NCBI RefSeq assembly: GCF_011762185.1
Contig: NZ_JAASQJ010000006.1
Location: forward strand, 62,001-126,000
Direction: 5' to 3'
Length of the DNA: 64,000 nucleotides
DNA from: Dyadobacter arcticus
GTDB lineage: Bacteria; Bacteroidota; Bacteroidia; Cytophagales; Spirosomataceae
In this document: piece by piece, positions 9,339-32,724 of the stretch
Numbering within the stretch: the stretch's first letter is position 1
How the letters are laid out: each line of letters opens with the position of its first letter
Made by a program: the position numbers and the translations under genes
Notes under the pieces: model-generated
The model's input: only the letters and a program-made list of their open reading frames with translations
The model's database searches: none
What the model was told of the DNA's origin: nothing

Positions 9339-12086
9339 CTAATTCCTTCCCAAATTAATATTCATGGTAGTCCCAATCCTGAAAACGGTGTTTTTATACT
9401 TAAACCCTTCAAAGCTATTGGCCACTTCGATGCGAAATGGGAAGCGGATGCCTACGTCGAGGCCGTAGCCTAGTTCGGTGTAATTGTCGGAGGCTGGGGT
9501 GGCCAGGTAATGCAGGAAGAAGTTTTCCTTGATTCCCATGATCCTGAACCAGGTGATTTGTGTCAGCAGGAATTTGCGGAATTCGCTTAAGACGTGGGCT
9601 TCGAAAAATTCTTTCGCAGTGCTGTATTTATAGTAATCCAGCATTCTGAAAGTGCTAACTGGATCGCCAAACTGAAAAAAGAATTGATTGCCTGCAAAAT
9701 GCTGAAAATCCGGAAAGCGGACATTGGCATCATTCAAAAACTTACCGGCAGCCAGCTTATATCGCAACTTGCTTCTCACACCTGTTTCAAATCCGTGCTG
9801 CATGCCGATTTGAACAAAATCATAATCCACATCGCTTCCAAAAGCATCATTGATCCCTTTGCGATAAGTCAACGACAGCTCCGGTGAATCGTCGTCGTAA
9901 AAAGTGGTTTTGCCGCTTTTAATTTTGTACTTCTGCCACGGCTTGTACGAAGCGGTTAAGCCTAAGGTAAGAGCCTGGTGCGGCCGCATCTCGAAGGATG
10001 CTGTACCCGTTTCATCTGTCAGTTCCGCATTAAATGGGATATTGGAAGTAAATGCGCGACGTTTCCAGTCGATCCAGTTGTAGGGGTTCATATCTTTTAC
10101 ATTTCGCAATGCACGTCTGTCGGCATATTCAATGTTCGCTTTTAGTTCGAAATGTTCGTTTTCACGATCGGTTTTAAAATCCAGCCGAACAAAATCTTTT
10201 TCGTATATCTTGATAAAATTCCTTTCCAGGAAAAGCGTCGTAAATGTGTTAAGTAAAGGATGCATGGGGTTTTCACCATTGTACTGCGATATGGCGCTTC
10301 CGCCAGAAAAATTGAATTTATTTCTCTTCCAGCCATAATCGATACCCCCTGTCGCAAGTAACTTTTGTCTGGCGAAGGAGTATCGTGTCAGCGCATTGAT
10401 CGACAAATCCTGCCGTATTTTCGTCTCCCCATTCGCCTTTTTTCCTGCCCCGCTATATTTCAATTTCAGCCCGCCGCCATTCAGTGCAAGACCTTCAACC
10501 GTGTTGATCTGCGCGCCGTAAATCGGACTCACGTAATCCAACCGCCACGGACTTTTCTTGCCCAACCTAAAACTATGGCCGGTAAATACATCCCCGAAAA
10601 ACCCGAAAAAGCTACCCCGACCTTTTTTGTTACTTTTTGTTGTGTCCGATTTGCTTGGCTTTGAATTGCCGTCCTGCGGTTTACTTTTCTCCTGAACTAC
10701 AATAATGCTATCAAGACGAGTATAACTTTTTAATTCCGCCGTCGTCAGCGGCACAGTGCGGATAGAATCCCAAAATGCCATCGTTCGTTTGCTGGCCATG
10801 GTATCCACGGTTGTTGAGTCGTTTCTTGTAAAATTCAGGTCGATGTCTTCACCCTTTTCCTCTTTGGCTTTTAAGTCCTGCTTTTCGTATTCCTTCATCA
10901 GTTTTCGAAGGTTTTTAGCAGAAAATTCCTTTTGCTTGCCGACAACTTCTTCCAATTTCTGAGTTTTAATCTCACGCCCTGAAAGCTTCACTTTTTTGGC
11001 TTCCTCCTTCTCCTTTTTTCCATCGACGACTACTATGTCCGGCCTGAATGTTGGGTTGATCTTCACATTTGTAAATGATTGGGAGATCACAAAATCACCT
11101 TTTCCTTTCAATCCGTAAATACCTCCGGCAACATGAAATTGCTGATTGACAGGCATCCAGGCGCCTTGAACAGGACTGTAAACCTGCTTAATGTCAATGT
11201 TAAAACCGGTGTTTACCGTTTGCAGATCGAGACTGTAAATGCTCCATTCGCCTTCAATGATATGAATAGTACCACGATAAACGCCCTCGCCATAGGATCT
11301 CGGGGTTACCTTGATTTTATTCACTTCGATACCATTTTCCCGAAAAGCACCCTGGTATTCAAACTTATAGTAGGCAAATGCGCGCGGAGATAAGGGCGAT
11401 ACCGCTTTTACAACTTCAGGCTGATAAAAACTGGCGAGTAGATAAGCATTAGGATTGGCGAAACCTTTATCCTGGCTGTTCCGCGCCGCAATCACACGTT
11501 GTTTGTATGAGTTAGGTTGGCGGAAAGTAACTTCTGACACGCTTTCGTTGAGAATAGGTACGCCTTTTTTGAAATTTGTCTCCTTTTCTACCTCTTTTAG
11601 TTCTTTTTTATATAAAAACTCCATCGGCAGATCGGTGATCACAATGGAGGATTTTGAGTAGGCTTTTGCAACATAACTATCCACCTGAAGCAAATGATAG
11701 CGACTCTTCGCGATCGCCCGCCTCATAATAGTATACGCCGGATCTTCATCCCGGTTGCCAATGCGAACCTCGCCCAGGTTAAGCGCCTGCTCTTCCATGG
11801 TAAGGTCAAAAATTTCCATTTTATTTTCAATAGTAAATGCTTTCAACCCGGTTTTAAACCCTAAGTATTGGAAGATAACTTCATGATAACCAGGCTTTAA
11901 ATCGAGCTGATATTTCCCTTCCTCGTTGGAGATCGTGCTGATCTCCGTGCCTTTTACAATGATAGCTGCAAATGGAAGGGGCTCTCCCTTGGTTGTTTTA
12001 ATAACTCCCTTGACGCCACTCTGGGAAAATGCATGGCCAATGGTAATCAAAAGAAGAAAGAAACAAAGCAGGTAACGATTGAGCAT
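9339..12086 (-). CDS. DUF5686 family outer-membrane protein with carboxypeptidase-like N-terminal domain
   Basis: The 915 residues start with a signal peptide (MLNRYLLCFFLLLITIGHAFS) followed by a carboxypeptidase regulatory-like domain (about 24-105; GVIKTTKGEPLPFAAIIVKG) and a long DUF5686 region that ends as a beta-barrel-like stretch (FEGFKYKNTVFRIGTTMNINLGRN). A charged, Lys/Glu-rich insert lies around 370-440. These proteins are common in Bacteroidota and lack the TonB-plug signature; the function is unknown and probably envelope-associated. It follows the helicase gene on the same strand after 94 bp. Confidence 0.85.
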   Translation of the reverse strand: MLNRYLLCFFLLLITIGHAFSQSGVKGVIKTTKGEPLPFAAIIVKGTEISTISNEEGKYQLDLKPGYHEVIFQYLGFKTGLKAFTIENKMEIFDLTMEEQALNLGEVRIGNRDEDPAYTIMRRAIAKSRYHLLQVDSYVAKAYSKSSIVITDLPMEFLYKKELKEVEKETNFKKGVPILNESVSEVTFRQPNSYKQRVIAARNSQDKGFANPNAYLLASFYQPEVVKAVSPLSPRAFAYYKFEYQGAFRENGIEVNKIKVTPRSYGEGVYRGTIHIIEGEWSIYSLDLQTVNTGFNIDIKQVYSPVQGAWMPVNQQFHVAGGIYGLKGKGDFVISQSFTNVKINPTFRPDIVVVDGKKEKEEAKKVKLSGREIKTQKLEEVVGKQKEFSAKNLRKLMKEYEKQDLKAKEEKGEDIDLNFTRNDSTTVDTMASKRTMAFWDSIRTVPLTTAELKSYTRLDSIIVVQEKSKPQDGNSKPSKSDTTKSNKKGRGSFFGFFGDVFTGHSFRLGKKSPWRLDYVSPIYGAQINTVEGLALNGGGLKLKYSGAGKKANGETKIRQDLSINALTRYSFARQKLLATGGIDYGWKRNKFNFSGGSAISQYNGENPMHPLLNTFTTLFLERNFIKIYEKDFVRLDFKTDRENEHFELKANIEYADRRALRNVKDMNPYNWIDWKRRAFTSNIPFNAELTDETGTASFEMRPHQALTLGLTASYKPWQKYKIKSGKTTFYDDDSPELSLTYRKGINDAFGSDVDYDFVQIGMQHGFETGVRSKLRYKLAAGKFLNDANVRFPDFQHFAGNQFFFQFGDPVSTFRMLDYYKYSTAKEFFEAHVLSEFRKFLLTQITWFRIMGIKENFFLHYLATPASDNYTELGYGLDVGIRFPFRIEVANSFEGFKYKNTVFRIGTTMNINLGRN

Positions 12087-21144: not shown

Positions 21145-21202
21145 TTAAACCATTAAGGCACGGATTTTGAGAACATTATCTTGTAAATTTTTTCAGAAGA
21201 TT

Positions 21203-21976
21203 ATGAGAGCAATATGGTCAGGGTCGATTGGGTTCGGCCTCGTTAATATTCCCGTCAAACTTTTCAGCGCAACGCAAGGCAGCGAGCTGGATCTTGACAT
21301 GCTGGACAAAAAAGATCACGCCAATATTAAATTCCACCGCGTTAATGCCAATACAGGCAAGGAAGTCGAGTGGGAAAACATTGTCAAAGGATATAAAGTA
21401 GAGGATGATTATGTGATTCTGGATGACAAGGATTTTGAAAAAGCCAGTCCTGAAAAAACCAAGATCATCGAAATTGCTGAATTTATCAATGAAAAAGACA
21501 TTGACAGCATTTACTACGAAACCCCTTATTATCTCCAGCCTGAAAAATCAGGCGCAAAACCCTACGCGCTCCTTCGTGAAGCTTTAAAAAAAACGGGTAA
21601 GGCCGGTTTAGGAACGTACGTCCTTCGAAACCGGGAAAGTCTTGTATTGATCAAACCACAGGGTGACCTATTGATTCTGAATAAAATCCGGTTTCAGGAA
21701 GAGATAAGAGATACCGTAGACCTGAACATTCCTGACATCGCAGTAAAACCTGCCGAAATGAATATGGCAATCCAGCTGATCGAGCAGCTTACCACCGACT
21801 TCGACATTTCCAGATATAAGGATACGTATAATGAAAATCTGCTAAAACTCATCATGGCGAAGGCAAAAGGCAAGAAACCAGCCTCGCCAAAAATGAAGAT
21901 TGTCCATTCGAAAAGTAAGGATCTGATGGCGCAATTGAAAGAAAGTCTTGCGGCTCCAAAAAGAAAGGCATCATGA
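21203..21976 (+). CDS. ku: Ku protein, bacterial non-homologous end joining
   Basis: The start at 21203 (MRAIWSGSIGFGLVNIPVKL) gives the canonical Ku N-terminus, and the upstream in-frame codon is rejected. The 257 residues cover the Ku core (FHRVNANTGKEVEWENIVKGY, FEKASPEKTKIIEI, YYLQPEKSGAKPYALLREAL, GLGTYVLRNRESLVLIKPQG) with a basic C-terminal tail rich in Lys. Ku forms a dimer ring that binds broken DNA ends and recruits LigD. Its stop overlaps the start of the LigD polymerase gene (ATGA), so the two are translationally coupled. Confidence 0.95.
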   Translation: MRAIWSGSIGFGLVNIPVKLFSATQGSELDLDMLDKKDHANIKFHRVNANTGKEVEWENIVKGYKVEDDYVILDDKDFEKASPEKTKIIEIAEFINEKDIDSIYYETPYYLQPEKSGAKPYALLREALKKTGKAGLGTYVLRNRESLVLIKPQGDLLILNKIRFQEEIRDTVDLNIPDIAVKPAEMNMAIQLIEQLTTDFDISRYKDTYNENLLKLIMAKAKGKKPASPKMKIVHSKSKDLMAQLKESLAAPKRKAS

Positions 21977-22884
21977 AAAAGAAAGCCGAGTTAACACATT
22001 TGGACAAAATATATTGGCCCGACGAGAAGATTACCAAAGGCGACCTGCTGGAATATTACAGTAAAATTGCCCCCTATATCCTGCCTTACCTGAAAAACAG
22101 GGCATTGTCGATGAGGCGAAACCCAAATGGCATTAACGAGCCAGGCTTTTTCCAGAAGGATGTCGGTGACCATGCTCCTGATTGGTTAACAACAGCGGAA
22201 ATACATGCAGAGTCGACTGATAAGATGGTTAATTACTTGGTTGTTAATGATGTAGATAGCTTGTTGTATGCTGCCAATCTCGGCTGCATTGAGATGAACC
22301 CCTGGAATTCGACCATTAATAAGCTGGAATATCCGGATTACATTGTCATGGATATCGACCCGTCCCCAAAAAACACCTTCGACGATGTGATAGAAGTTGC
22401 CCTTACGATTAAAGACATCCTTGACCGGATCGGCATTGACGGTTATTGCAAAACTTCCGGGTCAAGAGGGTTGCATGTTTACATTCCTTTTCACAAAAAA
22501 TATGATTATGATGCTGCCCGAAGTTTCGCCGAAATCCTGGCAAGCTTGGTAACTGAATACCTCCCGGGCCTAACTACATTGGAACGATCACTTGCCAAGC
22601 GTAAGAAAAATCACATTTATGTCGATTTCCTTCAAAATCGGATCGCACAGACGCTTGCTTGTGCGTACAGTGTCCGCCCCAAACCGGGCGCAACAGTTTC
22701 TGCTCCGCTGGAATGGAGCGAGGTAAAAAAGGGTTTGAGCCCGAAGCAATTTACGATCAATAATATGCTGGACAGGGTGAAAGAAAAGGGCGACCTTTTC
22801 AAAGGCGTCCTTGGAAAAGGAATAGATCTCCAGAAAGCATTGCAACAACTGGACGCATTGCATGAGACAAAAAGCTCGCAATAA
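21973..22884 (+). CDS. LigD-type polymerase (primase-polymerase) domain protein, stand-alone
   Basis: The 303 residues match the archaeo-eukaryotic primase-like PolDom of LigD: IYWPDEKITKGDLLEYY at the N-terminus, the metal-binding D127-x-D129 in YIVMDIDPS, the SGSRGLHVYIP motif, a third acidic residue in HIYVDFLQN, and RPKPGATVSAPLEWSEV. This domain fills gaps and adds ribonucleotides during end joining. The ATP-dependent ligase and the phosphoesterase domain, often fused in LigD, are absent here, so a ligase must come from elsewhere. It overlaps ku by 4 bp. Confidence 0.93.
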   Translation: MKKKAELTHLDKIYWPDEKITKGDLLEYYSKIAPYILPYLKNRALSMRRNPNGINEPGFFQKDVGDHAPDWLTTAEIHAESTDKMVNYLVVNDVDSLLYAANLGCIEMNPWNSTINKLEYPDYIVMDIDPSPKNTFDDVIEVALTIKDILDRIGIDGYCKTSGSRGLHVYIPFHKKYDYDAARSFAEILASLVTEYLPGLTTLERSLAKRKKNHIYVDFLQNRIAQTLACAYSVRPKPGATVSAPLEWSEVKKGLSPKQFTINNMLDRVKEKGDLFKGVLGKGIDLQKALQQLDALHETKSSQ

Positions 22885-24298: not shown

Positions 24299-25039
24299 TC
24301 AGAACAACCGCAAGTCATTTACCTCATGATATCCTTCTCTTAACTCCCCAGTCCTGAATAGATTGACATATTCGTGTGCCCGGCGCGTTGGTTCTGGCAG
24401 GCGGTGTTTGCTGATACACTTCATTGCAATTTCCAGGCTGTCCTGAAGGCTCATGTTGTTACCGGGCGAGATAAAAACAGGCTTAAGATTATTTTTGGTT
24501 CTTAACGCAAAGCCAATTTCTTCCTGACGATCTATGACCGAACAATACCTACCCTTTTCATCACCTGGTTCATCATATTTCCCGACCAGCTTTTTTTTCG
24601 CGCAACCCATTGTTACTGTGTCTGTCAAAATCCCAAAATGAGAAGCAATACCCATTCTTCTTGCATGAAGGATGCCATTTCCATCAAACATCACAACATC
24701 AGGTTTATCCGAAATTTGTTCATATGCCTTTAACAGTGCCGGAATTTCTCGGAATGCCAGGTAACCAGGTGCATATGGAAAAGTCGTACTGCTTTTGATC
24801 AGTGAATAACTAACGGGTTGCAGATCCGGGAAACTCAAAATGACGATTCCCGCAAAAACCGTTTCACTATGCAGCGACAGAGAAATATCGGCCCCAGCTA
24901 TGGTTCGGATAGGTCCCAGATATGGATTCAGGTTTAAATATTTTTTCAAATCCTGCTGGACCAGCGTCGCTTCCGCAATGGTCAGCTGATCGTAATTCGA
25001 CTCTGGTGTCTGAACGGTTTGGATTAATTCAGCTGGCAT
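24299..25039 (-). CDS. nfi: Endonuclease V (deoxyinosine 3' endonuclease)
   Basis: The 246 residues carry the family residues in order: Asp51 in IAGADIS, the strand-separating wedge (FPYAPGYLAFRE, with the catalytic Glu), and the metal site and base pocket PDVVMFDGNGILHARRMGIASHFG, followed by TVTMGCAKKKLVGKY. Endonuclease V nicks DNA next to deaminated adenine (inosine) and starts repair. The C-terminus (LPEPTRRAHEYVNLFR) is also typical. Its start is 57 bp from the divergent small membrane-protein gene. Confidence 0.93.
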   Translation of the reverse strand: MPAELIQTVQTPESNYDQLTIAEATLVQQDLKKYLNLNPYLGPIRTIAGADISLSLHSETVFAGIVILSFPDLQPVSYSLIKSSTTFPYAPGYLAFREIPALLKAYEQISDKPDVVMFDGNGILHARRMGIASHFGILTDTVTMGCAKKKLVGKYDEPGDEKGRYCSVIDRQEEIGFALRTKNNLKPVFISPGNNMSLQDSLEIAMKCISKHRLPEPTRRAHEYVNLFRTGELREGYHEVNDLRLF

Positions 25040-25708: not shown

Positions 25709-27010
25709 TCACGTGACAGCCATTGTTGAATTACTTTCCCGGCGATTTTTTCCAGTCCTGTACCTTTCAAAATAAATGTTACTCAATGTGAGCAACAACA
25801 GCCCGACGCCAAATTGTACATAGGAAAACTGCATCAAGACCTTAGACCAACTCAGGTCTTTCATGAAAAACTCCTTATATAGAAGCAGTCCGACGCTTCC
25901 CAGATAACCAATGCTTTCGCAGATGTAAACGAAAAAACCAGCATTGGCTTTAACGCGGAACAAGGCAATCATCCGGTCGAAAACAACAGTTTGAAGCACA
26001 GTGTAAGCCAGAAACATCCCCAGCCCGATTAGCAACATCCAGAAAAACCCATTGATCAGGTTTCTTTCAAACAAAAAAGTCGACAGCCCAATCAGGCACA
26101 TTCCCGTGAACAATATGAGATTGGTAAGCCTGAAACCCAATACATTGTCACGCACAAAAGCCAGGGAACCGATCACCGCCAGCACGATAACACCCGTAAT
26201 CATCTCTGTGGTTGTCAGCACACTACTACCCCAACCCGCGTCGATTTCATTCCAGATTTCAATGGTGAAATTATCCCGAAAGTCGCGGACAACAACGAGG
26301 GTAGCATAGAAAATGACGAGGCAAATAATGGGAAGCCCGAGCTGCTTCATCACAAGTCGCTTATCCTGCTTCGTCATTGGCAACCGTTCCGTCCGGAGTT
26401 TAATATCCTCCAATGTGGGCTCCGGGATCACCGATAGCATCCATACAAAAAGAAAAAACAGCGGTAAGAAGAGAAGCCCCATCAAAAATGGCATCCAGAA
26501 TTCTGATATTCCAGGCAATAAAGTATGTATTTCAATATAAGTGGTTTTAAGAATCCCGGAAGCAACTACTACGCTGATATTCAACCCCATAGCAAGCATT
26601 TCCGTAAACTTCCTACCTTCCAGAAAACTAAAAACAACACCCCAAACCATTCCCAGCGGAAGGCCATTAAAGAACAGGAAGATAAAATTATATGGATATG
26701 GGACGAGCCCAAACAGCAGCAGGGCAGTTTCCGCAAACAAGATTAGTCCAATCACCAGCGGAACCCGGGAGCCTGGTTTTAATTCTGAAATGATCTTGAT
26801 ACCCGCAAATTTCGAAAGTGTATATCCTGCGACCTGCGAAATGATCAGGATTGCTTTATAACTGATATCCCAAACTTCCAGCCCGTTATAAAGCCCTGCA
26901 TTAAAAGGCTTTCTGAACGCATACATACAGAAATAAGCCCCGAAAGAGGCTACCAGCGCCCAAATAATGAAAAAGGTATTTGATCGCAGTAGTGATTCTT
27001 TCAGTCGCAT
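25709..27010 (-). CDS. DUF5690 family MFS-like transporter (candidate phosphonate/aminophosphonate carrier)
   Basis: The 433 residues form about 12 membrane segments. The N-terminus (ASFGAYFCMYAFRKPFNAGLY) and the loop FLEGRKFTEMLAMGLNIS resemble organophosphate:phosphate antiporter-like MFS proteins, and a conserved charged stretch (VVRDFRDNFTIEIWNEI) lies mid-protein. The family (DUF5690) has no assigned substrate that I know of. It is the last gene of the phosphonate-type operon, 18 bp after the PbfA-like gene, so uptake of an aminophosphonate or export of a product is the natural guess. Confidence 0.85.
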   Translation of the reverse strand: MRLKESLLRSNTFFIIWALVASFGAYFCMYAFRKPFNAGLYNGLEVWDISYKAILIISQVAGYTLSKFAGIKIISELKPGSRVPLVIGLILFAETALLLFGLVPYPYNFIFLFFNGLPLGMVWGVVFSFLEGRKFTEMLAMGLNISVVVASGILKTTYIEIHTLLPGISEFWMPFLMGLLFLPLFFLFVWMLSVIPEPTLEDIKLRTERLPMTKQDKRLVMKQLGLPIICLVIFYATLVVVRDFRDNFTIEIWNEIDAGWGSSVLTTTEMITGVIVLAVIGSLAFVRDNVLGFRLTNLILFTGMCLIGLSTFLFERNLINGFFWMLLIGLGMFLAYTVLQTVVFDRMIALFRVKANAGFFVYICESIGYLGSVGLLLYKEFFMKDLSWSKVLMQFSYVQFGVGLLLLTLSNIYFERYRTGKNRRESNSTMAVT

Positions 27011-27028
27011 AACATTGGTTTTTGTGAT

Positions 27029-28387
27029 TCAGACTAGTGTTGATGCTTTTTCAAGGGCGTCTTCCAGAATCCGCAAAGCTTCGCTCAGCTGTTCGCGGGT
27101 AATAATCAAAGGCGGAGAGAGTTGGAGCACATTTCCCTGAGATACCTTAAAACTCAAACCATTTTTAAGACATTCGTACATGACAACTTCCGCCTGCATG
27201 ACCGCCTTCTCACGACTTTCCCGGTTGGTTACCAATTCAATACCCCATAGCAAGCCGATTCCTCGAATGTCGCCGATTATGGGAAATTTGCTTTTCAGTT
27301 TCTCCAATGCTTTCTGCATAAATAAAGCATCGGCCTCTACTTTTTCCAGAATGTGATTCTGCTCTATATATTCGAACATAGCCAGCGCCGCCACACTTCC
27401 CAATGGACTTTTCTCATGGGTAAAATGACCCAGCGAAACTTCTTGGGCAATGTTATAACTATCCCTTGCAACAATTGCGGCCATTGGCATTATGCCTCCT
27501 CCAAGTCCTTTCCCCAGACAAATAATATCCGGCTCAATGCCGTAATGCTCAAATGCGAACATCTTTCCAGTGCGCCCAAATGCGATGGGAATTTCATCGA
27601 GGATCAGCAGGACTTTGTGTCTGGAACAAATGCTTCTTACCCTTTCCCAATAAGCCTGAGATGGGATTTGAACATCTGTATTTCTGATCGTTTCAATCAA
27701 AAATGCACCTATATCTCCCTCTTTTGCAATTACATATTCGAGGTAATCGGCATAGGGCAGGTCACCATTATTTGCATTGATGAATGGGCCACGATAAGTC
27801 ATGGGAGGCGGAATTCTTTCCACTCCCGGCATCAGTGGACCCATATCTTTCCTGAAATCCAGTTCGCCTCCGGCAGAAATCGCATCAAGTGAAGCGCCGT
27901 GAAAGGAATCCCAAAGTGAGATCACTTTGTGTTTGCCTGTCACGATCCGTGCCAGCTTTAATGCCATACTAATGGCAGAAGTGCCGCCAGGAGCAAATAA
28001 AACGCGGTTAAGATCGCCTGGCAGCAGGCTGCCTAGTTTTTTGGCCAATTCGATGGCGGGCACATTGGTATATCTTCTTGGGGAAAAAGGCAGGATATCG
28101 AGCTGTTTTTTTAGCGCTTCCATTATAAATGGATTGCGGTAACCGAGCTGGTGTACATTGTTACCATGAAAATCCATATATTTTTTCCCTTGAATGTCGG
28201 TTAGGTAAATGCCTTCGCAAGAAGCTAACACATCCAGGCAGGGCGTTGACAGGGATTGGTGAAGAAAATGTTCCTCATCCTCACGCAGATATGAAACGGT
28301 CGCAGGATCGTCCATCACCGCATACCATTCATTGCGCGCGCGTGATAAGTTGACATCCCCTTCCGTCCTGTTTTGCGCCTCGGTCAT
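27029..28387 (-). CDS. pbfA: PbfA-like PLP enzyme, (R)-1-hydroxy-2-aminoethylphosphonate ammonia-lyase
   Basis: This 452-residue class-III aminotransferase fold enzyme has the PLP phosphate loop PGGTSAISMALKLAR (133-147), WDSFHGASLDAISAG (159-173), Asp264 in LLILDEIPIAFGRTG, and the Schiff-base Lys293 in CLGKGLGGGIMPMAAIV. The N-terminal FLHQSLSTPCLDVL and MDFHGNNVHQLGYRNP resemble the PbfA group, which removes ammonia from 1-hydroxy-2-aminoethylphosphonate to give phosphonoacetaldehyde rather than transaminating. The adjoining phosphonatase-like gene supports this. Start overlaps the stop of the phosphatase-fold gene (ATGA). The alternative is a class-III aminotransferase on another substrate. 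Confidence 0.8.
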   Translation of the reverse strand: MTEAQNRTEGDVNLSRARNEWYAVMDDPATVSYLREDEEHFLHQSLSTPCLDVLASCEGIYLTDIQGKKYMDFHGNNVHQLGYRNPFIMEALKKQLDILPFSPRRYTNVPAIELAKKLGSLLPGDLNRVLFAPGGTSAISMALKLARIVTGKHKVISLWDSFHGASLDAISAGGELDFRKDMGPLMPGVERIPPPMTYRGPFINANNGDLPYADYLEYVIAKEGDIGAFLIETIRNTDVQIPSQAYWERVRSICSRHKVLLILDEIPIAFGRTGKMFAFEHYGIEPDIICLGKGLGGGIMPMAAIVARDSYNIAQEVSLGHFTHEKSPLGSVAALAMFEYIEQNHILEKVEADALFMQKALEKLKSKFPIIGDIRGIGLLWGIELVTNRESREKAVMQAEVVMYECLKNGLSFKVSQGNVLQLSPPLIITREQLSEALRILEDALEKASTLV

Positions 28388-30048
28388 TTTAAAAATAATT
28401 TATCAGCCGGGATCAGTTGCTTGGCGATTTTAGGGCCTTTGTAGAATGCATCAAGCCAGAATCCACCGCCATTGTTGTAATATTCCACCCGGATCGGATG
28501 TTTGCCGGCCGTCAATTCAATAGTGCCCGTTTCTTCCTGTACGCCGTGGTTACCGTCATTGTCCACCACTTCTTTGCCATCGATATACAATTTACTTCCG
28601 TCATCTGATTGGGTTGTGAAAAGGTATTTTCCCGGCTCGTCAATTTGGATTAGTCCTTCGAATTTAGCTGCGAAACTTTCATTCCCTTTTTCCAATAACT
28701 TATTGATATCGTCGCGGTTTAAAGCGAATTCGGGACTTGTCCAGGATGCGCCCTTTTTTATTTTGTTAAAATCAGGCAACTTTTTCAAATCATCACCCTG
28801 ATAGAATGTAGCAGACAATCCGTTGCCGAGGCCCGTCTTGACGATTCTGAAATAAGCAGTTGAAAGGATACTTGGATTGCCTTTTTCATCGTATGACCTT
28901 GACTTTACAACCGAGGTTTTATCGAGTTTAAAAGGCTTTTCATACAAAGGAGACTTCGTATTCGGGTCCGTGCCGTCGATCGTGTACCTGGTCGTGCTTT
29001 TATCAATCCTTCTCTCAATTTTCACGGTTGGTATCTCATCAATATAAAGCCCCCCGGCCTGCTGATACAATTTTCTGTCCGGGTAAATGACCGGTGCTTC
29101 CACCGCTTTCTCTCCTAACCAAAGGTTTGCAGGCTCATTAAATTCTTCAAAAACTGCTTTAACCGGGCGCCCGATCCAGGCGTAAGGCTGCTGCACGCCC
29201 AATGCAAATGCCATCGTTGATGCCAGATCATAGGTGTAAACCTGTTGCTCGATCTTATATCCTTTTTTTACATCCTTACCATAAAATACGCCCGTGATTT
29301 CGGCTTCCTGTGGGGTAGCGCCGCCATGTCCGTAACCGATGCCACCGTGATCTGCCCAAAGGATTATTAATGTTTTGTCCATTATTCCGGCGTCTTTAAT
29401 TCCTGCGAGAATTTTCCCGATCAATGAATCCGCTTTTACAACCGACTTATAATACTCTTCCGAACCATGTCCACCGTGATGCCCCGCATGATCGACATGA
29501 TCAAAATGCACAAATCCCAAGGCAGGTTTTTTTGCTTTGATATAGTTAATGAAATCGGTGGCAGTAGAATCTTCTGTGGAAAAACGCTTGTCATAATTTA
29601 CCGCGTTTTTTTGAAATAACCTTCCAAAACCATCCCAGTGGTAAACTACACCGATTTCTGCTTCGGGCTTCGCTTTGTGGAAAATACTGAAAATGGTCGG
29701 AAAACGCCCGTCGGCTTCGTTGACGATCGGGGGCAGGGTATGATCATCCATTTCCCAATCATTATTAATAATTCCGTGCTGTTCAGGTCCTGCACCCATG
29801 ATCATCGAAGCCCAGTTCTGGCTGCTCGCGGAGGTAAGCACCGTTCTCACATTCCATTTCACGCTTCCATTTGCTATCATATCGTCAATCACTGGCGTCT
29901 CTGCTTTTTTGATGCCATCAGGACTCAGACCATCGATCCCAATCACGATCACATGTTCGATCCCGGCAGGCTTTTCCTCCGATTTTTCTTTACAGGACAC
30001 AAAGAACAGGAACGCCGCTGGTAACAGAAACGTGGTTTTGGGGAACAT
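28384..30048 (-). CDS. Alkaline-phosphatase-fold lipoprotein with CHB_HEX_C-like and PA14 domains
   Basis: The 554 residues comprise a lipoprotein signal (FFVSC, Cys19), then a phosphodiesterase/alkaline phosphatase superfamily domain (about 30-330): metal Asp39 in IGIDGLSPDG, a Ser nucleophile region TSASSQNWASMIMG (72-85), HFDHVDHAGHHGGHG and LWADHGGIGYGHGG metal ligands. A chitobiase C-terminal-like module (YTIDGTDPNTKSPLYEKPF) and a PA14 module (about 410-550; TQSDDGSKLYIDGKEVVDN) follow. It lies inside the phosphonate operon, so it may release phosphonate head groups or phosphate from esters at the cell surface, with PA14 binding glycan. Substrate is inference. Confidence 0.85.
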   Translation of the reverse strand: MFPKTTFLLPAAFLFFVSCKEKSEEKPAGIEHVIVIGIDGLSPDGIKKAETPVIDDMIANGSVKWNVRTVLTSASSQNWASMIMGAGPEQHGIINNDWEMDDHTLPPIVNEADGRFPTIFSIFHKAKPEAEIGVVYHWDGFGRLFQKNAVNYDKRFSTEDSTATDFINYIKAKKPALGFVHFDHVDHAGHHGGHGSEEYYKSVVKADSLIGKILAGIKDAGIMDKTLIILWADHGGIGYGHGGATPQEAEITGVFYGKDVKKGYKIEQQVYTYDLASTMAFALGVQQPYAWIGRPVKAVFEEFNEPANLWLGEKAVEAPVIYPDRKLYQQAGGLYIDEIPTVKIERRIDKSTTRYTIDGTDPNTKSPLYEKPFKLDKTSVVKSRSYDEKGNPSILSTAYFRIVKTGLGNGLSATFYQGDDLKKLPDFNKIKKGASWTSPEFALNRDDINKLLEKGNESFAAKFEGLIQIDEPGKYLFTTQSDDGSKLYIDGKEVVDNDGNHGVQEETGTIELTAGKHPIRVEYYNNGGGFWLDAFYKGPKIAKQLIPADKLFLK

Positions 30049-30121
30049 AGAGGGTAAGGGTTAAAGGGTCAAAAGGTTGAGGGTATAGAGTAGGATTTAG
30101 GAATAGTTGGGATTTCAAGTT

Positions 30122-31252
30122 TTAAGATGGTGTGTAGCTACCTCCTACCACTTCGTCGCAGAGGCCAAAAGAGAGGGTCATTCCATTGCCGCCGAGGCCG
30201 TTGATGATGGTGACACCACTTTCCGGTTTGATTACAATTTCGGTTGCGCCGTTGGTCAATTTGGGATAGATACCATGCCAGGTTTGGAAAACTTTTGGAG
30301 ATTTGAACCGGGCAAATGTGGCCAGATAATCCAGGATCATGGTGTTGATAAATTCCCTGTCGAACGGATCGAAGGTTAATGCATATTCGTGGGAATCTCC
30401 CACGGTAATTTCGCCCAAGCCATTTTGTGAAGCCATCACATGGATTCCCCACTTTAAATGTTCAGCATATTCAGCTTCGTAGCGGGCTTTCAATCCGGGT
30501 AATGATGCGGCTGCTTTGAAGCCGTGGTAATGTATGAGGGACAGTCCGCCGCACAATGCCGGACCAATTCTCCAATTATCCGGCTGCGCTTCCAGGCGAA
30601 GCATTTGGAGTTTACATTTTGTTAACGGAGCTTCTGAAAAATGTTCCGGATATAATGTCTCAAAATCCTGGCCGCTGCAGACAAAAATTTCATCCGCAGA
30701 CCAGCTTTTTACTCCTGAATAAACATTGGGATACGATATGTCCGAAATTGCGGTGTTCCAGATGAAAGTAACACCGAGTTTGGCGGTCAGGTAACCGGGA
30801 ATGGCAGCGATGGCTTCCCGAGGATCAACGATCATTTCATCTTCGGAATACAGAGAGCCTAATAATCCGTTCCCATTTACCGCAGGCGACTTTTCCAGTG
30901 TTTCAAAAGCATTCAGAATGCTCACGGGACGATAACTGCTCACCTCGACAAACTGCTGCAACACTTCAAATTCGTCATTTTGATAAGCCATGTGAAGACT
31001 TCCACCTTCATAAGACCAGCATTTCGCCCCTTCAAGCACTTCTTTCCAAATGCTTTTTGCATGAAGTGCCCTTTCATATAAAGTACCCTCCGGCTGACCA
31101 ATAGGCCATACCATACCAAAATTCCTGATGGAGGCACCAATCGCTTTCGAAGATCTTTCAATTACTGTTACCTGATAATTCCTTGACGCCAAAGCTCTTG
31201 CTGTCGCAAGCCCAACGATCCCTGCTCCTATGACAATAGCAGATTTGCTCAT
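30122..31252 (-). CDS. TIGR03364-type FAD-dependent oxidoreductase (aminophosphonate oxidase candidate)
   Basis: The 376 residues form a DAO-family flavoprotein: dinucleotide-binding GxGxxG (AIVIGAGIVGLATARAL), the second FAD motif VIERSSKAIGAS, NFGMVWPIGQPEG near the active site, and the C-terminal GLGGNGMTLSFGLCDEVV flavin loop. The TIGR03364 group is repeatedly encoded beside phosphonate genes, and members are proposed or shown to oxidise aminoethylphosphonate or its N-methyl form to phosphonoacetaldehyde. Here it sits between the phosphatase-fold gene (73 bp) and the phosphonatase-like gene (27 bp). Exact substrate not determined. Confidence 0.85.
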   Translation of the reverse strand: MSKSAIVIGAGIVGLATARALASRNYQVTVIERSSKAIGASIRNFGMVWPIGQPEGTLYERALHAKSIWKEVLEGAKCWSYEGGSLHMAYQNDEFEVLQQFVEVSSYRPVSILNAFETLEKSPAVNGNGLLGSLYSEDEMIVDPREAIAAIPGYLTAKLGVTFIWNTAISDISYPNVYSGVKSWSADEIFVCSGQDFETLYPEHFSEAPLTKCKLQMLRLEAQPDNWRIGPALCGGLSLIHYHGFKAAASLPGLKARYEAEYAEHLKWGIHVMASQNGLGEITVGDSHEYALTFDPFDREFINTMILDYLATFARFKSPKVFQTWHGIYPKLTNGATEIVIKPESGVTIINGLGGNGMTLSFGLCDEVVGGSYTPS

Positions 31253-31279
31253 CCCAATGAATTTTAATTGATATAGAGA

Positions 31280-31987
31280 TTAACTCTTCTGAGCCGCGAA
31301 GGCATGGCTGGCTGAAATGATGCCGATGACATCAGCAATGTTGTCAATGATGTGTGTCGGCTTGTAAGGAAGCAGCTCTTCGCGGGTAAATGCACCGGTT
31401 GTAATGCCAATCACATATTTGCAGCCTGCATTGATTCCCTCATTGACATCTACCTCAGTATCACCTACTTTGGCCACATTATCCGGAGAGTTTACGCCCA
31501 GTTCTGTCATAATTCGTCGAATCATATCCGGGTAAGGGCGACCAAATGGCACTTCATCGCTGGCAACCATCAAATCTATTTTGTCTTTCCATCCCAGACG
31601 ATCAATAATCACATCTGCAATGTCTTTCGAAAAACCGGTATTGAGGGCGATTTTGATTCCGTCAGCGCGAAGCGTTGCAAACGTTTCCTCCACGTTGGGT
31701 AGTGGGGCGATTTCCTGGGTACTTTTATAAAATGCAATCATTCCCTCCACAAAATGGGTGTGGATTTCGGTAACGAGCTCATCCGTGATTTTTGATTTGT
31801 TGACTTCACGAACTTCAAGCATCATTTTAATAGCCAGGGGTTTTTCGTATCCCATCAGCGGATTTACATCGTCAATTGCGATATCATATCCCTGCGATTT
31901 CATGGCCTGCTGAAAGGCGATCCCTACAAAATTTTTGTCGCTGACAGTGGTTCCGGCCATATCGAAAACAACAAGTTCTATTGACAT
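31280..31987 (-). CDS. Phosphonatase-like HAD hydrolase (PhnX-like)
   Basis: The 235-residue HAD enzyme has motif I VVFDMAGTT: nucleophile Asp9 and Ala rather than Asp at +2, as in true phosphonatase (PhnX, DxAGT). The cap has MGYEK with Lys49 at the spacing of the Schiff-base lysine in PhnX (MGxxK). Motif II (NTGFSKDIAD), motif III with Arg (FGRPYPDMI) and motif IV (KVGDTEVDVNEGINAG) are intact. It probably cleaves the C-P bond of phosphonoacetaldehyde to acetaldehyde and phosphate. It is the first gene of the minus-strand operon, 161 bp after the regulator gene. Confidence 0.85.
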   Translation of the reverse strand: MSIELVVFDMAGTTVSDKNFVGIAFQQAMKSQGYDIAIDDVNPLMGYEKPLAIKMMLEVREVNKSKITDELVTEIHTHFVEGMIAFYKSTQEIAPLPNVEETFATLRADGIKIALNTGFSKDIADVIIDRLGWKDKIDLMVASDEVPFGRPYPDMIRRIMTELGVNSPDNVAKVGDTEVDVNEGINAGCKYVIGITTGAFTREELLPYKPTHIIDNIADVIGIISASHAFAAQKS

Positions 31988-32148
31988 TTTGAACGTATAA
32001 TTGGTGAACTAATACTGAACCTTCCAAGATAACATAGCGTGTATACGACAAAAATAGAGAGCGCTAACCAAAAATACATTATTCAAATGTTAATTAATAT
32101 TTAACTTTCTGCTTCAAAGTTAAGGTCAAATTTATACTCATCCGGCCA

Positions 32149-32724
32149 TTAAGCTTCATTAAAAAAGTAGATGACGAGCAGTAACACTTCGTCCCCGTTG
32201 ATGCATTTCGGATTGTGAAGTTCATTGGCATCAAAAAACATAGAATCGCCCTGATTAAGAATGTACTTGTTTTTTCCAACCGTGTATTCGACCGAACCCT
32301 GCAGCACATATTTGAATTCATAGGCATTGGTGCGAACCATCGGTCTTCGCGCATCTTTTTCCAGCCGAAGGAGGACCACATCAATATGGTTATCCTTAAA
32401 CTGCTTGCTGAAGATGCGTAGGTAATGATATCCTTTGGCGTTTTCCTTGGTGAATGGCTGGTAATCTTCCTTTCGCCTGATTAAAACATTATCTCCCGGG
32501 GCGGTTGAAATGATGTCTTTAAAAAAAACATTAAGGTCGATATCCAGCGCCTTGATCAGCCCCAACATGACAGGCAGAGAAGGAATGGTCCTGCTGTTTT
32601 CAATCTGAGAAACCAGGCTTTTCGTAACACCGGCCTCATCGGCAATTTCCTGAAGTGTTACCCCTTTATTTTTCCTTGCCTCCTTTAATTTATTACTGAT
32701 CTGGAAAAGAATGTCTTCCTGCAT
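32149..32724 (-). CDS. XRE-family regulator with C-terminal cupin
   Basis: The start at 32724 (MQEDILFQISNKLKEARK) gives 191 residues. The helix-turn-helix (about 8-65; GVTLQEIADEAGVTKSLVSQIENSRTIPSL) is followed by a linker and a cupin_2 ligand-binding domain (about 110-188; VLQGSVEYTVGKNKYILNQGDSMFFDANELHNPKC). This type usually controls an adjacent catabolic operon with the cupin sensing a substrate. It lies directly upstream of the phosphonate genes on the same strand, 161 bp away; the gap contains several TAnnTTTG-like boxes on the minus strand (for example at 32049-32056), so the operon may have its own promoter. Confidence 0.88.
   Translation of the reverse strand: MQEDILFQISNKLKEARKNKGVTLQEIADEAGVTKSLVSQIENSRTIPSLPVMLGLIKALDIDLNVFFKDIISTAPGDNVLIRRKEDYQPFTKENAKGYHYLRIFSKQFKDNHIDVVLLRLEKDARRPMVRTNAYEFKYVLQGSVEYTVGKNKYILNQGDSMFFDANELHNPKCINGDEVLLLVIYFFNEA

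Follow-up and report, generated by a model that had tools for sequence, protein, structure and literature searches.

How does a bacterium without the 2-aminoethylphosphonate (AEP) transaminase PhnW gain access to aminophosphonates, and where would these compounds come from? This question is raised by an operon in a 64,000-nucleotide stretch of Dyadobacter arcticus DNA (assembly GCF_011762185.1, contig NZ_JAASQJ010000006.1, positions 62,001 to 126,000), referred to here as the window. Six consecutive open reading frames (ORFs) on its minus strand encode, in order of transcription, an XRE-cupin protein, a PhnX-like hydrolase, a flavin adenine dinucleotide (FAD) oxidase, a lipoprotein of alkaline phosphatase (AP) fold, the pyridoxal phosphate (PLP) enzyme PbfA, and a DUF5690 protein, at intergenic distances of 161, 27, 73, -4 (an overlap), and 18 bp. 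We consider it very probable that these genes serve an aminophosphonate catabolism centred on phosphonoacetaldehyde (PAA), and likely that the operon as a whole scavenges phosphorus from aminophosphonates in the way proposed below. The pathway core is an ordinary one, found in a new setting. An earlier note on this DNA had described the six genes as consecutive on one strand with short gaps or overlaps, which the ORF coordinates bear out; its gene assignments hold by Pfam and NCBIfam matches, the PhnX-like protein falling under both curated cut-offs. The features are as follows, in window positions.

32149..32724, minus strand: XRE-cupin gene, likely regulator, first gene (HTH_3 50.9 bits, Cupin_2 42.7 bits)
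32086..32105, minus strand: operator-like 20-bp element GTTAAATATTAATTAACATT between the regulator gene and phnX (exact match; kept in Dyadobacter loci)
32049..32056, minus strand: TAnnTTTG-like putative promoter element, downstream of the 20-bp motif (conserved ta..tttg columns in a 16-locus Dyadobacter alignment)
31280..31987, minus strand: PhnX-like, predicted phosphonoacetaldehyde hydrolase of the HAD family (TIGR03351 201.6 bits, below the cut-off of 218.9; cap Lys aligned)
30122..31252, minus strand: FAD oxidase, TIGR03364 or PbfD-type (TIGR03364 407.2 bits, cut-off 285.1)
28384..30048, minus strand: AP-fold lipoprotein, similar to nucleotide pyrophosphatase/phosphodiesterase (NPP), with Fn3_assoc/CHB_HEX and PA14 tail (Pfam, model, invariant residues)
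27029..28387, minus strand: PbfA (NF049939 726.8 bits, cut-off 525; tree; Vibrio plasmid relatives)
25709..27010, minus strand: DUF5690 protein, candidate carrier of major facilitator superfamily (MFS) fold (Pfam 485.3 bits; neighbourhoods; model)

The Pfam domains along the operon are HTH_3 with Cupin_2; HAD; DAO; Phosphodiest with Fn3_assoc/CHB_HEX_C_1 and PA14; Aminotran_3; and DUF5690. A scan for lipoprotein relatives in named records took the best 80 of 407 candidates, 25 of them titled Dyadobacter, and comprises 81 loci with the window added (about 10 kb on each side, some stretches being cut by contig ends; phmmer thresholds were our own choice). The top 13 rows, all Dyadobacter, are 71 to 85% identical to the window lipoprotein. 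Genes for the PhnX-like protein, oxidase, lipoprotein, PbfA, and DUF5690 occur together in all 25 named Dyadobacter loci; thus, the gene set is not a matter of chance. An XRE-cupin gene was recognised beside the operon in 20 of these 25 loci, and relatives of it in 15 of 39 neighbourhoods. Gene identities and order, catalytic residues, co-occurrence, the genome-wide absence of PhnW, and a common DNA element are sequence-based observations.

We propose that the surface lipoprotein would hydrolyse a glycan or lipid ester and so free an aminophosphonate, with (R)-1-hydroxy-2-aminoethylphosphonate (R-HAEP) as the most likely product. The product would cross the outer membrane, in relatives via a SusCD pair, and DUF5690 would move it over the inner membrane. 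PbfA would convert R-HAEP to PAA, the FAD oxidase would convert N-methyl-AEP and probably AEP to PAA in place of PhnW, and the PhnX-like enzyme would split PAA into acetaldehyde and phosphate. The XRE-cupin protein would control the operon via the 20-bp element, which in Dyadobacter would also bring a second, unlinked locus under control, consisting of an AP-fold hydrolase gene with or without SusC-SusD. All activities and substrates in this scheme are predictions from sequence.

The PLP enzyme passes the PbfA equivalog model. Among 296 Bacteroidota genomes sampled for family counts, 12 encode a PbfA over the cut-off, the lowest at 595 bits; the next-best scores, 343 and 311 bits, belong to two adjacent pieces in genome G179, and then comes a protein at 308 bits. 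The two adjacent pieces (locus L044) resemble a single PbfA gene split over two frames. The window PbfA shares 61 to 63% identity, over 97 to 98%, with Vibrio plasmid proteins, one of which is flanked by phnW and phnX and has an AEP ABC importer next to it. The oxidase is likewise above its curated cut-off and would convert AEP or N-methyl-AEP to PAA; a search of solved structures with it at E 1e-10 returned no match. As for the HAD protein, phosphonoacetaldehyde hydrolases rank first among its solved relatives; since it does not reach the curated cut-offs (for the phosphonatase model TIGR01422, 129.8 bits versus 220), we call it PhnX-like. In an alignment to a solved phosphonoacetaldehyde hydrolase, the Lys of its MGYEK pairs with the Lys of MGLLK. 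All 17 PhnX-like sequences aligned share this cap Lys, which in PhnX forms the Schiff base, and an Ala two positions after the nucleophile Asp.

The earlier note had found neither PhnW nor carbon-phosphorus (C-P) lyase in the window, and both statements extend to the whole genome (99.93% complete). The best match to the PhnW model scored 36.3 bits versus a cut-off of 400.8, and no match was found genome-wide to PhnJ, which was detected in the E. coli positive control, or to Phn-HD, the family of PhnZ-type HD proteins. The idea that PbfA and the oxidase would both feed PAA to the hydrolase is supported by the family assignments, the PbfA tree, and the absence of PhnW.

The source of the aminophosphonate would lie with the lipoprotein. 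A lipobox-like FVSC can be read from its sequence, and the closest PDB fold to its predicted model (pLDDT 86.8) is the Xac NPP, with which it shares the fold and the metal-site pattern. It differs from this enzyme in carrying an Fn3/PA14 tail and a Ser at the nucleophile place, where NPP has Thr, and in having no long insert before the last His. D39, S75, D186, H190, D233, H234, and H241 are invariant in an alignment of 28 sequences, a pattern that would suit an AP site binding two metals and using Ser as its nucleophile, these residues standing for the metal ligands and the Ser/Thr nucleophile.

Full-length relatives of the lipoprotein (>400 bits) are encoded in 8 of the 296 genomes. All eight belong to the 12 PbfA genomes (hypergeometric chance 4e-13, kinship ignored), and they are exactly those in which PbfA stands in a phosphonate setting; the two genes lie near each other on one contig in seven of them and on separate contigs in G119. 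Across the 81 lipoprotein loci, PbfA is nearby in 49, a PhnZ-type HD protein in 6 (in Chitinophaga, Pedobacter, and Puia), both in none, and neither in 26. The HD protein of L084 scores 137.6 bits against the solved PhnZ, with TmpB second at 113.4, and that of L018 scores 214.1 against the Phn-HD family, slightly below the cut-off of 214.6; the other five HD proteins were assigned solely by likeness to L018. One of the five searchable HD genomes (L086 left out) also carries PbfA. Both PbfA and PhnZ act on R-HAEP, and they never share a cluster in a published survey (PMC8154272; the papers cited are drawn on in part, and what is said of them holds for those parts). Since the lipoprotein pairs with one or the other of these enzymes, we infer that R-HAEP could be its product. 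Whether it is indeed a surface hydrolase that would release R-HAEP or AEP from esters appears to us evenly balanced on this sequence record. Among the strongest new points of this study is that one and the same hydrolase pairs with PbfA at some loci and with a PhnZ-type protein at others. A strict tie to PbfA was considered and rejected, for it holds in 8 of 8 cases in the genome sample, but 26 loci of the named scan have neither enzyme.

Alternatively, the lipoprotein may cleave organic phosphate in general, as a phosphodiesterase or phosphatase that simply stays with other P-scavenging genes, and the operon may use free aminophosphonates only, an explanation that falls somewhat short of probable. 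Its closest solved fold, the 26 loci with no R-HAEP enzyme nearby, and further phosphatase-like proteins in the same clusters all point that way, as does the mixture of phosphatases, phosphodiesterases, and phosphonate-degrading enzymes in the phosphate utilisation system (PUS) loci of Flavobacterium (PMC8115612). Against a general role stand its linkage across several families to one of two partners, PbfA or else a PhnZ-type HD protein, and the presence of PbfA in every one of the eight genomes with a full-length lipoprotein. Furthermore, among the 25 searchable genomes with neither enzyme at the lipoprotein locus (L082 left out), 15 encode PbfA elsewhere, though 10 of those 15 are without a PhnX-like protein.

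Some relatives of the lipoprotein depart from the window's version. It is short, with 312 to 330 aa and an AP domain without the Fn3/PA14 tail, in L100, L102, L103, L105-L109, L116, and L124, and a tandem double AP-domain lipoprotein stands by PbfA and PhnA-, PhnY-, and oxidase-like genes in L042 (6539-8995) and L043 (6886-9351). Two records titled Pseudomonadota (L091 and L128) hold AP lipoproteins that fall within Bacteroidota clades; their titles are probably wrong.

For the oxidase, it is conceivable though rather unlikely that it acts on N-methyl-AEP only, in which case the cell would use N-methyl-AEP and R-HAEP and not plain AEP. PbfC does strongly prefer N-methyl-AEP, but PbfD2 of Mariniblastus fucicola oxidises AEP just 4-fold slower, and M. 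fucicola, like the window genome, is apparently without PhnW (PMC10590968).

It is far less probable that the window's PLP enzyme works as an ordinary class III aminotransferase, such as an AEP transaminase replacing PhnW. It does belong to the same superfamily; among solved structures, class III aminotransferases, racemases, and decarboxylases come closest to it, and genomes that have no PhnX-like protein carry relatives of it outside phosphonate clusters. Against this stand its match to the PbfA model, the drop in score from 595 to 308 bits over the 296 genomes (the G179 pieces aside), and its place in a tree of 52 sequences. The earlier note had named grouping with ordinary omega-aminotransferases as the outcome that would speak against PbfA; this grouping did not occur, and the window enzyme falls inside the PbfA group with the Vibrio proteins, separate from the other class III enzymes that its genome encodes. 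The tree lacks the characterised V. splendidus protein itself, and a distant Devosia protein on a long branch also falls within the PbfA group. Finally, PAA is an intermediate of phosphonate biosynthesis as well as of catabolism, yet a role of the operon in recycling the cell's own phosphonates or in their biosynthesis is very improbable, as the operon joins a lipoprotein hydrolase, a carrier, and a catabolic hydrolase, relatives have SusCD, and no biosynthetic gene turned up in a Pfam scan of 19 of the window's proteins (a genome-wide search for pepM was not part of the analysis).

There is a reasonably good case that DUF5690 is the inner-membrane importer of the aminophosphonate. It is encoded in 30 of the 296 genomes, in 29 of them over the cut-off, and also in the Caulobacter vibrioides control genome; 10 of the 12 PbfA genomes have it. 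Within the stretches covered, a phosphonate gene accompanies DUF5690 at 21 of its 29 loci, an AP-fold protein at 17, and SusC at 9. The HD protein is present in 8 and PbfA in 5 (6 with L036, which extends L006), both in none. Its predicted fold is MFS (pLDDT 87.6), the top PDB match being G6PT1 (G6PT1/SLC37A4, TM-score 0.57-0.74), with NorA third (0.59-0.64); a sequence search of solved structures gave no match. In the PbfA clusters L042 and L043, which are without DUF5690, a PgtP-like carrier is found instead (in L042 at 163 bits, below the family cut-off). We considered DUF5690 as a plain organophosphate:phosphate antiporter (OPA). The fold leans to this family, but the PgtP-like carrier of L042, compared with DUF5690 at profile level, speaks against it, with a probability of 0.7 over a single short stretch and no real match. 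DUF5690 is therefore not classed as an OPA carrier.

The 16-locus Dyadobacter alignment contains a single strongly conserved element between the regulator gene and phnX. The element is exact in the window, where 0.02 such sites are expected by chance, and with up to two mismatches all 25 named Dyadobacter operon loci contain it, as against none of the 55 other AP-lipoprotein loci, which rules out its occurrence in the same form beyond Dyadobacter at such loci. The TAnnTTTG-like element downstream resembles the Bacteroidota -7 element. The XRE-cupin protein is likely the pathway regulator, and is predicted to bind the 20-bp element.

Across 21 Dyadobacter genomes, 35 sites with up to two mismatches were found, versus 7 for the reversed pattern. 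Every one of the 21 sites with no or one mismatch precedes phnX (15), SusC (5), or an AP-fold hydrolase of the c8 type (1). The last case is that of the window's own genome, in which the site overlaps the end of the preceding ORF and the hydrolase start codon lies 75 bp past the site. The 14 two-mismatch sites comprise five before phnX, one in an already-counted phnX gap, two at SusC, two with nothing recognised, and four unexamined. In all, the element precedes phnX in 20 of the 21 genomes; in the exception, G335, presence of the operon was not checked. At the SusC loci L195-L198 the order is SusC-SusD-c8 hydrolase, and L199 has a SusCD pair of the same type as the L062 operon. The SusC proteins of L195-L198 score 852-863 against the SusC of the PbfA cluster L021, compared with 78-112 for unrelated Dyadobacter SusC-like proteins, and the c8 hydrolase of the window's genome is 45 and 39% identical to the hydrolases beside PbfA in L021 and L110, respectively.

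A SusC-SusD pair stands between oxidase and lipoprotein in 5 of the 25 Dyadobacter loci (L062, L063, L065, L066, and L068); in the window these genes are 73 bp apart and the operon has no such pair. Furthermore, 21 Flavobacteriaceae-type loci have the order SusCD, lipoprotein, PbfA, with a purple-acid-phosphatase-like protein, and 20 of them include a c8-type AP-fold hydrolase. An element common to phnX, SusC, and the c8 hydrolase points to an unlinked outer-membrane arm. The connection it makes between the operon and an unlinked SusCD-hydrolase locus is, with the lipoprotein pairing, among the strongest new points. The earlier picture of the operon is thus supported as far as it went; it had neither this arm nor the common element. 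In its widest form, we advance the reading only tentatively: the operon may be one arm of a surface-led Bacteroidota system in which the lipoprotein would free R-HAEP, DUF5690 would represent a new carrier family, and the element would join a SusCD-hydrolase locus to the pathway.

Several observations weigh against this reading in part or as a whole. PbfA copies outside phosphonate clusters are among its weakest points. A search of PbfA neighbourhoods in Bacteroidota, suggested in the earlier note, bears the reading out in 8 of the 12 genomes, in which PbfA has a phosphonate setting, and fails to do so in the other four (G126, G099, G190, and G292). Ten genomes of Chitinophagaceae and similar groups (G296-G305) have close relatives of PbfA (best copies 728-747 bits) and of the AP protein; none of the ten has a PhnX-like protein and one has a TIGR03364 oxidase. 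In 20 PbfA stretches from these genomes (some second copies fell outside the set) no PhnX-like, oxidase, or DUF5690 gene was found, which rules out that their PbfA sits in hidden phosphonate clusters. Since close relatives are thus encoded away from phosphonate clusters where the genome has no PhnX-like protein, membership of the PbfA family alone is no proof of the pathway. The PhnX-like protein, as said, is under both curated cut-offs. For the lipoprotein, neither R-HAEP enzyme is near it in 26 of the 81 loci, PbfA is missing at E 1e-100 from 10 of the 25 searchable genomes of this class (genome completeness not given), and the tail domains are missing in 10 of the 25 Dyadobacter proteins. 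On the lipoprotein tree, the labels PbfA, HD, and neither are clustered (10 changes versus a shuffled mean of 32), and the 49 PbfA loci therefore represent few independent events. At 8 of the 29 DUF5690 loci nothing phosphonate-related was recognised nearby. As to the element, the window's own genome has just two sites with up to two mismatches, neither at SusC. In L195-L198 the site is 404-438 bp ahead of SusC, and a divergent ORF lies nearer (146 bp; 21 bp in L197); in both two-mismatch SusC cases the site is on the opposite strand. Five of the 25 Dyadobacter loci have no recognised XRE-cupin gene by the element, which has two mismatches there.

Among the PbfA relatives outside phosphonate clusters, L139-L151 come mostly from Chitinophagaceae-type genomes without a PhnX-like protein; in L141 the neighbours are an epimerase, a redoxin, DUF2279, and LytB. 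L038, L040, L147, and L156-L158 form a second, more distant group over the cut-off, outside the cluster-linked PbfA group, and the distant copy in L157 has a SusCD pair in its stretch.

Much of the chemistry has precedents. PbfA has been described (PMC8154272), as have the FAD enzymes PbfB/C/D, including PbfD2 replacing PhnW and a PbfD1 of A. baumannii annotated TIGR03364 (PMC10590968), and a racemase, PbfF, in a paper that also notes pbfA with phnX beyond Proteobacteria (PMC12366243). Since oxidative PAA formation in place of PhnW is already published, the PhnW-less chemistry is not new. In the PbfD2-PhnX pathway of M. fucicola, as predicted here, an FAD oxidase forms PAA without PhnW and PhnX cleaves it (PMC10590968); that paper centres on the oxidases, whereas the window system adds PbfA, the AP-fold lipoprotein, DUF5690, and, in relatives, the SusCD arm. 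The phnWX-pbfA clusters of Vibrio and Azospirillum plasmids likewise bring PbfA and a PAA hydrolase together (PMC8154272), but they have PhnW and an AEP ABC importer, both of which are missing from the window operon. The proximity of SusCD to phosphonate genes has also been noted: the PusCD loci of Flavobacterium place SusCD-like complexes by phosphatases, phosphodiesterases, and reported phosphonate-degrading enzymes (PMC8115612). In contrast to our system, PbfA, PbfD, DUF5690, the window lipoprotein, and the operator are not named in the part of that paper drawn on; the window operon, for its part, is itself without SusCD, so that the locus has no PUS-type or polysaccharide utilisation locus (PUL)-type pair.

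Among the papers of the open literature covered, supplements aside and most of them judged from listings, we noticed none naming DUF5690, this lipoprotein together with PbfA, or the element of Dyadobacter. For Dyadobacter and phosphonate nothing looked related, as judged from the listing, for aminoethylphosphonate and SusD the term was found in a reference only, and work on lipophosphonoglycan contributed nothing beyond background. In the parts of the literature covered, the described catabolic enzymes act on free small molecules, and the release of bound compounds is not addressed; bacterial phosphonates are predicted to be mostly on surface glycans and lipids (PMC6697681). If the proposal is true, the lipoprotein would, to our knowledge, be the first enzyme to detach R-HAEP from glycans or lipids that bear phosphonates, for example those of soil amoebae. 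The system thus offers a candidate release enzyme, a candidate carrier family in DUF5690, and a DNA element by which further members can be found, all three testable in culturable Dyadobacter.

Elsewhere in the window, a homolog of Endonuclease V is encoded near the end of the operon (24299-25039, minus strand), past a small ORF without a Pfam match, and a protein with DUF5686 and a CarboxypepD_reg-like domain (637 bits) at 9339-12086 on the minus strand. On the plus strand, Ku and a stand-alone LigD primase-polymerase domain protein (21167-22884), whose genes overlap by 4 bp, make up a non-homologous end-joining pair.

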